In this document: in pieces, positions 21,954-27,673 of the stretch | Layout: each line of letters begins with the position of its first letter | How positions within the stretch are numbered: the stretch's first letter is position 1 | DNA from: Spiroplasma syrphidicola EA-1 | GTDB lineage: Bacteria; Bacillota_I; Bacilli_A; Mycoplasmatales; Mycoplasmataceae | NCBI RefSeq assembly: GCF_000400955.1 | Contig: NC_021284.1 | Coordinates: 372,001-436,000 of the forward strand | Length of the DNA stretch: 64,000 bases | Direction of reading: 5' to 3' | Program-made: the position numbers and the translations under genes | Notes under the pieces: generated by a model | Told to the model about the DNA's origin: nothing | What the model saw: only the letters and a program-made list of their open reading frames with translations | The model's database searches: none

Positions 21954-21981
21954 TTGTTTTTATTCAAATATTTATTATAAT
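21954..21981 (+). promoter_or_regulatory. promoter of the valS leader
   Basis: TTGTTT (21954-21959) and TATAAT (21976-21981) are 16 bases apart, just before the T-box leader. Confidence 0.7.
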
Positions 21982-21987
21982 TATTAT

Positions 21988-22195
21988 GACAAGATTAGAG
22001 GAGTAATTACGATAAATAGTTACAGAGAGTTAATGATTGCTGAAAAATTAACCTATTAATGTAATGAAGGTTGCTAATCTGATAATTTAATATCTTAAAT
22101 TAAGATAATAAAATTTTTATTTTATTAAAATCAGGATGGTACCGTAGTTATGCAAATAATTGCTCCTATTATTTTTTAATAGGAGTTTTTTATTT
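21988..22195 (+). promoter_or_regulatory. T-box riboswitch (tRNA-Val sensing) upstream of valS
   Basis: T-box leaders bind uncharged tRNA and let transcription continue when charging is low. The conserved T-box core is AGGATGGTACCGTAG at 22133-22147. The base of stem I is GATTAG (21993-21998) with CTAATC (22074-22079). Directly before the 3' strand is GTT followed by G (22070-22073), the place of a specifier codon, here Val. The TGGT of the T-box can pair with ACCA of a tRNA whose discriminator base is A, which is what the tRNA-Val gene at 56165 has. A terminator hairpin CTCCTATT (22163-22170) with AATAGGAG (22178-22185) and a T-run ends the leader. Confidence 0.9.
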
Positions 22196-22214: not shown

Positions 22215-24860
22215 ATGAAAAAAGAATTAGCTAAAAAATATGATCCCCAAAATGTTGAACAAGATAAATACCAAGGATGAGTTGAGAAAGGTTATTTCAC
22301 CGCAAAAATAACAAAAGATAACCCATCTTTTAGTATTGTTATCCCACCTCCAAATGTAACAGGAAAATTACATTTAGGCCATGCGTGAGATACCAGTTTA
22401 CAAGACTTAATTATTCGTTATAAAAAATTAAATGGTTATGATACCTTATATTTACCAGGAATGGATCATGCGGGAATTGCAACCCAAGCAAAAGTTGAAG
22501 AACGCTTAAGAACGACAAAAAATCAATTGCGCCATGATTTAGGTCGGGAAAAATTTATTGATCAAGTTTGAGAATGAAAAGAAGAATATGCGCAAATTAT
22601 TCGTGACCAGTGAGCAAAATTAGGGTTAGCATTAGATTATTCAAAAGAACAATTTACCTTAAATGATAACCTATCGTCAGCAGTCCAAAAAGTTTTTATT
22701 GACCTTTACGAAAAAGGATTAATTTACCAAGGAAAAAGAATCATTTCATGAGATCCAAAACAAAAAACAGCGTTATCAAATATTGAAGTAATTTACCAAG
22801 AACAAGTTGGTAAAATGTATTATTTTAAATACTTTTTAGCGAATAGTACAACCGAATTTCTAACAATTGCCACAACTCGTCCCGAAACAATGTTTGCCGA
22901 TCAATGTGTTGTTGTTAATTCAACCGATGAACGTTATCAACAATATTGGCATCAACAAGTTATTAATCCCGCCAATGGGGAATTAATCCCAGTTATTTGT
23001 GATGATTATGTTGAAAAAGATTTTGGAACGGGAGCAATGAAATGTACCCCCGCCCATGATGCAAATGATTTTGAAATTGGGAAACGTCATAATTTAGCGA
23101 TGCCAATTTGTATGAATTTAGACGGTACATTAAATGAAATGGCGGGTAAATACCAAGGTCAAGATCGTTTTACGGCTCGTACTAATTTAGTTAATGATTT
23201 AACGGCCCAAGATTTAGTTGTTAAAATTGAAGACCATGTTCACCAAGTTGGTTTCTCTGAACGTAGTGGGGTTGTTGTTGAACCTTATTTATCAAAACAA
23301 TGATTTGTTAAAATGGATTATTTTGCTGACAAAATTTTAAAATTCCAAAGTTCAAAAGATAAAATAAATTTCTTTCCACACCGTTTTGATAAAACATTAC
23401 AAACATGAATGGAAAATATCCAAGACTGATGTATTTCTCGTCAATTATGATGAGGTCATCAAATCCCAGCGTGATATCATCGCGATGATGAAAGTAAAGT
23501 TTTTGTTGGAACAGAACCACCTAACGAAACTGATTGATATCAAGATGAAGATGTTTTAGATACTTGATTTTCTTCAGCGTTATGACCATTTACAACATTA
23601 GGATGAAACTGAAATGAAGAATTATTTAACCATTATTTCCCAACTAATGTTTTAGTTACCGGTTATGATATTATTTTCTTCTGAGTTTCACGAATGATGT
23701 TCCAATCATTAGAGTTCACTAATAATAAACCATTTAATGATGTTTTAATTCATGGTTTAATTCGTGATGAAAAAGGTCAAAAAATGAGTAAATCATTAGG
23801 GAACGGAATTGATCCAATGGATGTTATTAGTGAATATGGGGCTGATACTTTACGTTATTTTTTAGTAACGAATAGTGCCCCTGGTCAAGATTTACGTTAT
23901 TCGGAAGAAAAAATTAAAGCTGCTTGAAACTTTTTAAATAAATTATGAAATGCGGCGCGATTTGTCGAAATGAATCGTCCAACAGATTTTAAACCATTCA
24001 CTAACTATCAAAATGAAATTAAACCACTTATCGAACAACACCAAGAATCAATTATTGATTGTTGAATTTTATCAGAGTTGACTTTAACAGTTAAAGCGGT
24101 AAAAGCTAATATGGAAAAATATGAGTTTGTGCTAGTAGCAAAAGACTTATATGATTTTATTTGAAACAAATTTTGTTCATGATACATTGAGTTAGCAAAA
24201 GTTAATTTAGGAAGTGATAACCAAGAAGTTGTCAATGGAACACAGCAAACTTTATTCTTTGTTTTAAAACAAATTATTATTATGCTCCATCCGTTTGTTC
24301 CTTTTATTACTGAGGAAATTTATCAAACCCTAAATTTAAAACCATCAATTATGCTTGAAGAGTATCCGGCTTTTGCCTTTACTTATCAAACTAACTTCTT
24401 AAATGAAGTGGTAAAGATTACGGGTTTAATCCGGGAATTAAGAACGCAATATCAAATTCCAAAAACACAAGCCTTAAGTTTAATTATTAAAACAACTGGT
24501 GAACAAGAACAAGAATTAGCAACAGCTCTTGATAGTATTAATAAGTTTATTATTCGGTTAGTAAATAGTGATATTAGTAACGTTGTAACATCATTTGGAG
24601 AAAGTAAAGAATACATTGCGGTACCATTAGAACATTATACAGTTTATTTAAAAGCCGAAGGGGTTATTAATAATGAACTGGAAACATCAAAAAGAACGGA
24701 GGAATTAGCCCGTTTAGAAAAAGAAATTGCTCGTAGTAAAAGTATTTTAGAAAATGCTAATTTTTTAGCCAAAGCAAGTCCAGAAAAAATTAAAGTTGAA
24801 CAAGATAAATATGATGACTATTTAAAACAATATGCTAATTTAACAGCGGAGCAAGAATAA
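22215..24860 (+). CDS. valS: valine--tRNA ligase
   Basis: Charges tRNA-Val. The 881-residue class I synthetase has [14 protein letters not shown] (HIGH-type motif) near residue 50. It also has the editing domain ([28 protein letters not shown]), the [14 protein letters not shown] (KMSKS) motif near residue 517, the anticodon-binding part and a C-terminal coiled-coil arm ([19 protein letters not shown]). Length is normal for the family. There are about twenty TGA Trp codons. Expression is controlled by the T-box immediately upstream. trmFO follows after two bases. Confidence 0.97.
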
Positions 24861-24862
24861 GG

Positions 24863-26185
24863 ATGAAAAAAACAGAAATTAATATTATTGGTGCTGGCTT
24901 AGCTGGGACGGAAGCCGCTTATCAATTAGCAAAGCGCGGTTATTTTGTTAATTTATATGAAGTAAAAACAAAACAAAAAAATCCTGTTCAAAAACAAGAT
25001 ACTTTTGCTGAGTTAGTTTGTTCAAATTCTTTACGCAGTAATAGCGTTACAACCGGGGTCGGATTATTAAAAGCCGAAATGGCGCAGTTAGATTCTTTAA
25101 TAATTAAAAATGCTTTAGCTAACCAAGTACCAGCTGGTGATGCTTTAGCGGTTGACCGTGATCTCTTTTCTAATGCTATTACAACTTATTTACGTAATCA
25201 TCCTAATATTAAAGTCATTGATGAAGAAGTTGATGCGATTGATTTAACAAAAATAACAATTGTGGCAACAGGACCATTAACAACCCCAAAAATGCAAACA
25301 GCCTTACAAGAGTTAATTGGGGCCAATTATTTTTATTTCTTTGATGCTGCGGCCCCAATTGTTACCAAAGATAGCATTGATTTATCAAAGGCTTATTTTA
25401 AATCTCGTTATGATAAGGGCGATAGTGCCGATTATCTTAATTGCCCAATGACCAAAGAACAATATGATCATTGAGTTAATGAACTTATTAACGCTGAAAC
25501 TGTTGAACTTAAATCGTTTGAAAAAGAAATCTATTTTGAAGGTTGCATGCCAATCGAAGTAATGGCAAAGCGCAGTATTCAAGCGCCATTATTTGGGCCC
25601 TTAAAACCAGTGGGATTAGGGCAAAACAAGGATGAACGACCTTATGCCGTTGTTCAATTACGCCAAGATAATGCCGTGGGAACATTATATAATCTCGTTG
25701 GCTTTCAAACCAACCTCAAGTTTCCCGAACAAAAACGACTTATCCAATTAATTCCCGGATTAGAACAAGCAAATATTGTTCGTTATGGGGTGATTCATAA
25801 AAATAATTATATAAATACCCCGTTATTATTAAATGAGCGCTTACAGTTAAAAGAACATCCTAATGTCTTTTTTGCTGGACAAATTACTGGGGTGGAAGGG
25901 TATGTTGAATCTAGTGCTTGTGGAATTGTAACGGCCTTAAATGTTGTTAATTATTTGGAAAAGCAACCAGCTGTTATTTTTCCTAAAGAAACAATGCTAG
26001 GGGCTTTGATTAATTATATTCTGCATGCTGATCAAAATAACTTTCAACCAATGAAAGCTAATTTTGGGATTATTCCCCCGTTAATTGACCAAAAATTTAC
26101 TTCAAAGTTAGAAAAATATCATGCTTATGTTAAAAGAGCCCAAGATATTTTAGCTGATTTTTTAGGAAGAAATAAAATTAATTAA
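24863..26185 (+). CDS. trmFO: methylenetetrahydrofolate--tRNA-(uracil-5-)-methyltransferase TrmFO
   Basis: TrmFO makes 5-methyluridine at position 54 of tRNA using methylene-tetrahydrofolate and FAD; some Mollicute members modify 23S rRNA instead. The 440-residue protein has the FAD-binding [19 protein letters not shown], the [15 protein letters not shown] motif with its cysteine, a second conserved segment [15 protein letters not shown], and [19 protein letters not shown]. Length is normal. It starts two bases after valS with a GGATG start context and is probably cotranscribed under the T-box. A single short TGA Trp site lies at 25472. Confidence 0.95.
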
Positions 26186-26254
26186 GTTGAAAAAGCTCTT
26201 TTATTATTACTAAAAAAATAATAAAATGTATCCAGAAGCAAGGAGAAGAGAAAA

Positions 26255-27673
26255 ATGAATTTAGAATTGAACGCCTTAATAAATGGCGAAATGATTAATA
26301 ATAATGAATGACTTGAAATTATTTCCCCAATTGATTTAAAACCATGTGGAAGAGTACCAGCTTTAAAAGCGAACGAAATTAATCAAGCTTTTAGCGCTGC
26401 TCGTCAATCATTTGCAACATGAAAAAAAACAACTTTATTTGAAAGAATTAAACTACTAAAACATTGAAGCCAATTACTATTGGAACATAAAAATGAATTA
26501 GCAAAAATTATGGCTTATGAAGTTGGAAAGGGAATTAAAGATGCGGAAGTTGAAATTGAACGAAGCATTGAATATATTGACTATACAATTGAAGAAGCAA
26601 AACGTGTTCATCCAGAAACAATGACAGGAGATGGGTGAAATATTAAAAATAAATTAGGAATATTTTCCCGAATTCCAAAAGGAGTTATTCTAGCAATTTC
26701 ACCGTTTAATTATCCAGTAAACTTAAGTATTTCTAAAATTGCTCCAAGTTTAGTAATGGGAAATACCGTTGTTTTTAAACCAGCAACAAATGGTAGTTTA
26801 ACAGGGTTATTTTTAGCAAAATTATTTCATGAAGCAAAATTTCCAGCTGGCGTAATTAATGTTGTGACTGGTCGTGGTCGTGATATTGGGGATTTATTAA
26901 TTACAAACCCCGAAATTGATTTAATTTCATTTACTGGTTCAGTTAATGTTGGAAATCAAATTAAACAAAAATGTAATGGAAAAGAATTAGTCTTAGAATT
27001 AGGGGGAAAAGATCCAGCCTTAGTTTTAGGGGATGCTAATTTAGCTAAAACAGTTAAAGAAATAATGGCCGGGGCCTTTTCATACTCAGGACAACGTTGT
27101 ACCGCAATTAAACGAGTTTTAGTCGCAGAAGAAGTAGCTGATGATTTAGTTGCAATGTTAAAAACAGAAGTTGAAAAATTAACAGTTGGTTCACCGTTAG
27201 ATAATGCAACAGTGATTCCAATTATTGATGATAAATCAGCTGATTTTGTTCAAGGGTTAATTGATGATGCTTTAGCCCATCAAGCAAAATTAGTAACAGG
27301 TAATACGCGCCAAGGAAATTTATTAGCTCCAACATTACTTGACCATGTTACAACAGCGATGAAATTAGCATGAGAAGAACCATTTGGCCCTGTTTTACCA
27401 GTTATTCGTTGTAAATCACTTGCTGAAATGGTTAAAATTGCTAATGATTCTAATTTTGCGTTACAAGCAAGTATTTTTACAAACAATTTAGATCATGCCT
27501 TTTTAATCGCTGAGCAATTAGAAACAGGAACAGTAAACATTAATAGTAAATCACAACGTGGCCCAGACTCATTCCCATTTTTAGGAATCAAAGATTCAGG
27601 GCAAGGGGTGCAAGGAATTCGCGAAACGATTAATTCAGTAACCCGCTTAAAAGGATTAGTAATTAATTACTAA
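26255..27673 (+). CDS. gapN: non-phosphorylating NADP-dependent glyceraldehyde-3-phosphate dehydrogenase
   Basis: GapN oxidises glyceraldehyde-3-phosphate directly to 3-phosphoglycerate, producing NADPH and bypassing one ATP-forming step of glycolysis. The 472-residue aldehyde dehydrogenase has the general base in ELGGK (Glu248) and the catalytic cysteine in YSGQRCTAIK (Cys282). The spacing matches the streptococcal enzyme. The C-terminal GTVNINSKSQRGPDSFPFLG block is diagnostic of GapN over other aldehyde dehydrogenases. AGGAGAAG is the ribosome site. It stands alone between trmFO and a terminator. Confidence 0.95.

Follow-up and report, generated by a model that had tools for sequence, protein, structure and literature searches.

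A predicted valine T-box riboswitch ahead of valS in Spiroplasma syrphidicola and its GUU specifier facing tRNA-Val(UAC)

The glyQS-type short T-box of Bacillus subtilis, which we take to share its layout with the leader described here, consists of stem I, a linker, stem III and the antiterminator and has no stem II. It differs in its specifier, which is GGC and faces G34, so that the C rule is obeyed. On the ribosome a tRNA with an unmodified U34 can decode an entire four-codon box, a behaviour known as superwobbling. For T-boxes a comparable situation has been described in Clostridium acetobutylicum, where the specifier GCU of the alaS leader and the sole tRNA-Ala (UGC), a single U34 isoacceptor, force a U-U contact at position 3, and antitermination across this contact was observed in vitro (PMC4695836). 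The same leader is described as having no stems II and IIA/B (PMC4695836), as we assume for the leader here. According to the T-box database, valine specifiers are distributed as GUA 0.61, GUC 0.29, GUU 0.08 and GUG 0.02, and for leaders with a U-ending specifier a tRNA with the Watson-Crick anticodon was found in 8.6% of the cases, the rest being ascribed to wobble or another frame (PMC7778990). A survey from 2008 gives two T-box elements for the Mollicutes (PMC2494555), and the literature that we searched, with most subscription papers outside its scope, held no account of valS T-boxes from Spiroplasma.

The leader analyzed here lies in a stretch of 64,000 nucleotides from S. syrphidicola EA-1 (the window) and shares the downstream gene, the motif GAA-N-GUN-R and UGGU with the valS T-boxes of Clostridium, Enterococcus and Izimaplasma. 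The valine leader is very probably an ordinary T-box in kind and mechanism; its specifier is unusual and well conserved.

The leader upstream of valS

Positions 21987-22195 very probably represent a transcriptional T-box riboswitch for valine, as judged from sequence comparison and folding. The covariance model RF00230 matched 21987-22170 on the + strand over its whole length (model positions 1-219) with 56.1 bits and an E-value of 1.1e-11, the latter referring to a search of 481 bases against 4227 families. The earlier note had proposed such a riboswitch before valS from the letters alone, and the full-length match, the competition between terminator and antiterminator and the position of valS agree with it. 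As RF00230 has a gathering score of 93, which the leader does not reach, an Rfam scan at the gathering threshold omits it, and the same holds for most T-boxes of the GTDB family: at E <= 1e-3 at least one T-box was found in 58 of 60 genomes, above the gathering cut-off in only 10 of them. The sparseness of T-boxes that the earlier note stated for Mollicutes is thus contradicted for this family. The genome (1,107,344 bases, one contig) has four conspicuous T-boxes, located before pheS, valS, hisS and thrS; a fifth, weak match (L005, 11.9 bits) was rejected as it is inside an open reading frame. The features of the locus, all on the + strand, are as follows.

21954-21959, +: weak -35 element TTGTTT, 16 bases ahead of TATAAT
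21976-21981, +: -10 hexamer TATAAT, read from the sequence, directly 5' of stem I
21992-22080, +: stem I (Rfam alignment, fold, covariation of the base helix)
21992-21998 / 22074-22080, +: base helix of stem I, AGATTAG/CTAATCT (covariation in 25 distinct leaders)
22002-22005, +: AGTA box on the 5' side of the specifier loop (opposite AGUA in the RF00230 alignment)
22024-22028, +: AG bulge AGAGA (Rfam alignment)
22029-22034 / 22047-22052, +: distal helix with apical loop (Rfam alignment; pairs covary)
22066-22073, +: 3' side of the specifier loop with GAA (22066-22068), one base, specifier GUU (22070-22072) and the purine G (22073) (Rfam alignment, relatives)
22106-22127, +: stem III (fold; aligned to stem III of RF00230)
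22133-22167, +: antiterminator (Rfam alignment; -6.9 kcal/mol folded alone)
22133-22136 / 22164-22167, +: helix A1 of the antiterminator
22137-22143, +: T-box bulge UGGUACC of the antiterminator
22144-22150 / 22157-22163, +: helix A2 of the antiterminator
22162-22186, +: intrinsic terminator, stem of 10 pairs and T run (terminator scan; -12.0 kcal/mol alone)
22215-24860, +: valS, valyl-tRNA synthetase, genetic code 4 (NF004349 1110 bits, TIGR00422 1046.5 bits)
24863-26185, +: trmFO-like gene (NF003739 654.5 bits), 2 bases past valS

T-box core (TGGTACC), stem I base, specifier GTT and terminator, which had all been pointed out before, are present, and stem I carries the AGTA/GAA specifier loop and the AG bulge typical of T-boxes. 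Stem I and stem III are separated by only 25 bases, a length that in our view leaves no room for stems II and IIA/B. Antiterminator and terminator have positions 22162-22167 in common and are mutually exclusive, and from their folding energies (-6.9 versus -12.0 kcal/mol) the off state should be the default. The terminator scan listed two sites, which are one palindrome counted per strand, with a shuffle expectation of 0.1. The fold of the whole leader is better than that of shuffled versions (z -2.16, equalled by 6 of 200), and for stem I alone the difference is weaker (z -1.54, 14 of 200). A sequence of the form TTGNNN-16-TATAAT precedes the leader in 14 of 14 genus members, in 10 of them as TTGCAA; the promoter scan did not list the TATAAT found here.

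Both matches to the NCBIfam valS equivalogs are above cut-off, and valS starts 28 bases past the terminator and ends with the stop codon at 24858-24860. Cotranscription with the trmFO-like gene is plausible from the spacing of the two genes, and the scan listed no + strand terminator in 24700-26400. This second gene perhaps encodes no tRNA methyltransferase, the function of TrmFO in Mollicutes being termed unclear in one paper.

ValS was found in 59 of the 60 family genomes and the upstream stretch was fetched for all 59, showing a T-box leader by its core motif in 37 and no core in 22. Among 25 distinct leaders the base helix of stem I runs over 6.28 pairs on average compared with 3.23 after shuffling of the partners, a value reached in none of 5000 shuffles, which leave the relatedness among these leaders in place; in two of 36 aligned rows (G007 and G009) the helix is interrupted within 4 pairs. 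In the distal helix all six pairs have rows altered on both sides with pairing kept (RNAalifold, whole alignment). This RNAalifold run gave 13 pairs in total, 6 of them changed on both sides, and included one long-range pairing that we do not believe. Some leaders look damaged, namely those of valS in G008 (L179), where CGGT replaces TGGT, and in G004 (L175), where the antiterminator is altered, and that of pheS in G013 (L047) with TAGT instead of TGGT. In the valS leader of G045 (L215) the AGTA side of the specifier loop is missing and the GUU specifier is kept. Judging by the valS leaders of G008 and G004, some species may do without this control.

The damage in these two genomes, together with the low Rfam score and a G-C pair where the G-U pair used for sensing is expected (see below), could also mean that the leader is decaying, is kept by descent and acts as a mere attenuating terminator without responding to tRNA. 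We regard this as very improbable, because the stem I base covaries and because S. syrphidicola, like most aligned relatives, has retained an undamaged UGGU, specifier, AG bulge and terminator. The assignment as a valine T-box thus rests on the covariance match, the competing structures, valS directly behind the terminator and 36 valS leaders elsewhere with a covarying stem I base.

The specifier and the valine tRNAs

Two valine tRNA genes are found in the genome:

56165-56240, +: tRNA-Val with anticodon UAC and discriminator A, which the leader is expected to bind
G000:C1:916327-916402: second tRNA-Val, anticodon also UAC

The earlier note had left room for further valine tRNAs with AAC or GAC, but the 32 tRNA genes detected in S. 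syrphidicola include neither of them, UAC being the only valine anticodon. Thus a single U34 isoacceptor serves the four-codon box, as expected for superwobbling. UGGU in the bulge is complementary to A73 and CCA of tRNA-Val, its U pairing with A73, so the fit to the discriminator base noticed before holds as well. In the family a pattern for tRNA-Val(GAC) matched none of the 60 genomes, and with UAC in place of GAC it matched 58. That the GAC version can find such tRNAs was seen in 15 outside genomes used as a positive control, two of which gave a match; these two are Izimaplasma and have GUC leaders. The two genomes missed by the UAC pattern (G020 and G023) are without a valS T-box core. For both of them neither BLAST nor the pattern search gave any tRNA-Val, possibly due to an assembly gap or a withheld stretch.

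The specifier ahead of valS reads GUU, a valine codon, followed by the purine G. Of the two versions considered in the earlier note, GTT, which would face UAC through U-U, is confirmed and the alternative GTA is not. With both tRNA-Val being UAC, position 3 must be U-U in this genome. The same specifier was found in 36 of 37 family leaders, the exception being GUA in G048, and GUC or GUG did not occur. In the 36 aligned rows (35 GTT and one GTA; the 37th leader, from G005, is identical to that of G002) the loop has GAA, replaced by AAA in G006, and after one further base GUN and a purine, the purine being present in all 36.

Shifted by one base the specifier would be UUG or UUA and the leader would sense tRNA-Leu, which would allow pairing without mismatch to CAA or UAA; the genome has UAA, CAA and UAG, and tRNA-Leu(UAA) likewise has the discriminator A. 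We consider this frame highly improbable as the downstream gene is valS, as G048 and the 43 outside GUA leaders described below would then have a stop codon (UAG/UAA), and as in 34 of 36 rows the codon would be followed by C or T, contrary to the purine rule, with which the GUU frame complies in 36 of 36. The RF00230 alignment also sets GUU at the consensus uuc, followed by a, the identity of these consensus positions with the specifier being our reading.

Outside the family the picture is different. For comparison we used the best 80 of 584 ValS relatives. The closest named one among them is Spiroplasma phoeniceum P40 with 68% identity, records of the own genome possibly being excluded, and its leader (L091) also has GUU. 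Without it the outside set comprises 79 relatives, 61 with a T-box core and 18 without, some of which lack upstream sequence. The motif was scorable in 49 of these cores and not scorable in 11, and the scorable leaders show GUA in 43 cases, GUC in 4, GUU in one (L162) and an unclear specifier in one; a further leader from outside the family (L094) has GUU by a looser motif. Judging by these counts the family departs from the usual A at position 3 opposite U34, GUU being nevertheless known elsewhere.

Within the T-box reading, GUU may simply persist by inheritance and AT-rich drift, U at position 3 having no functional advantage over A. This explanation must be taken seriously, even if we would put it at somewhat less than an even chance: GUU is the top valine codon in six genes of the window (118 of 177) and the G048 leader does have GUA. 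In contrast, drift does not readily account for 36 of 37 GUU specifiers and no GUC or GUG in leaders that have diverged to a mean column identity of 56%, nor for pheS and hisS leaders of the same genus that keep C at position 3 (13 of 14 and 5 of 5).

Helix A2 and the other T-boxes of the genus

The basal pair of helix A2 (22144/22163) is G-C in this valS leader instead of the canonical G-U, which a review describes as conserved and as the main barrier to 3'-aminoacyl tRNA (PMC7583486). Within the genus G-C was found in 13 of 14 valS leaders (T-C in G004), in 14 of 14 pheS leaders and in 9 of the 10 thrS leaders fetched, the tenth having G-U; that is two exceptions among 38 leaders. The five hisS leaders fetched all have G-U. 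In valS leaders of the other family genera the pair is G-U in 22 of 23 and A-U in the remaining one, and the 61 outside valS leaders have G-U (52), A-U (7), G-C (1) and A-A (1). We therefore treat G-U as a common but not defining T-box feature. The idea that G-C is confined to the genus was dropped, as it also occurs in 14 of 27 scored loci among L064-L090. The gene behind these 14 leaders matches ValS at 22-29% identity and is another synthetase gene, and a simple motif search assigned none of their specifiers.

The other leaders of the genus can be compared at the specifier as well. For thrS it is ACU in 10 of 10 leaders fetched, with a less certain frame and a non-canonical specifier loop, and for pheS it is UUC in 13 of 14, the remaining leader having UUU. 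Both tRNA-Thr of this genome are UGU, and it has no tRNA-Thr(AGU), the partner that would fit ACU. A tRNA-Thr(GGU) pattern matched none of the 14 genus genomes; its matches in 3 of 60 family genomes, none in the genus, were rejected as strings unlike tRNA arms. The hisS leaders show GAC in 5 of 5 fetched and the bulge UGGC. These hisS T-boxes (L003, L049, L052, L062 and L063) thus carry an aspartate codon together with UGGC, as if tRNA-Asp were sensed. As S. syrphidicola has G34 in its tRNA-Phe and tRNA-Asp, position 3 of the specifier is C where the tRNA has G34 and U where it has U34, a pattern that covers only four kinds of leader.

The U-U contact and its possible meaning

Neither PF01136 nor PF17773, the latter taken by us as a marker of TrhO, was matched in any of the 60 family genomes at E <= 1e-5, and as positive controls B. 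subtilis and E. coli match both. TrhP, from the peptidase U32 family, and TrhO, from the rhodanese family, initiate the ho5U34-type modification, and the same paper names PF00581 and PF12368 for TrhO and reports trhO from a subset of Tenericutes (PMC6599085). As the Pfam families taken for the U34-hydroxylating enzymes were matched in 0 of 60 genomes, U34 of tRNA-Val is probably unmodified and superwobbling. Mycoplasma mycoides has been described to use one tRNA-Gly(UCC) for four codons, with the tRNA sequence and not modification alone setting superwobbling (PMC10853795), and among the references of PMC3711424 are studies of unmodified U34 in M. capricolum.

We propose that when valine is short, uncharged tRNA-Val(UAC) would bind the nascent leader by two contacts, one between its anticodon and GUU in stem I (G-C36, U-A35 and U-U34) and one between its 3' ACCA and the UGGU of the bulge. 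The antiterminator would thereby be held and RNA polymerase would continue into valS and perhaps trmFO. The 3' end of a charged tRNA would be unable to pair, so that the more stable terminator would form and transcription would stop. With a GUA specifier a U-A pair, stronger than U-U, would form; the U-U contact would be possible because the sole valine tRNAs have a U34 that is probably free of modification and superwobbling. In principle such a contact is nothing new, as alaS of C. acetobutylicum shows antitermination in vitro across U-U at position 3 of the specifier, and the family-wide valine case is the addition. Compared with alaS, valine is concerned here, the specifier is kept across a family without matches to the U34-hydroxylase Pfam families, and the helix A2 base is G-C in the genus.

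A further reading, which we put forward tentatively and regard as possible rather than probable, is that T-boxes in Spiroplasma have moved to superwobble reading off the ribosome. The U-ending valine and threonine specifiers would then have been selected for a single unmodified U34 via U-U and the leaders for G34 tRNAs would have kept C; with helix A2 changed from G-U to G-C in the genus (valS, pheS and nearly all thrS), charged tRNA would be rejected in another way.

With UAC as the only valine anticodon found, no match to the Pfam families taken for the U34 hydroxylases and GUU in 36 of 37 leaders, the family provides a clean natural case beyond G-U wobble. It makes testable whether U-U is a working T-box contact with an unmodified U34, and whether the G-U pair of helix A2 is needed in order to reject charged tRNA.
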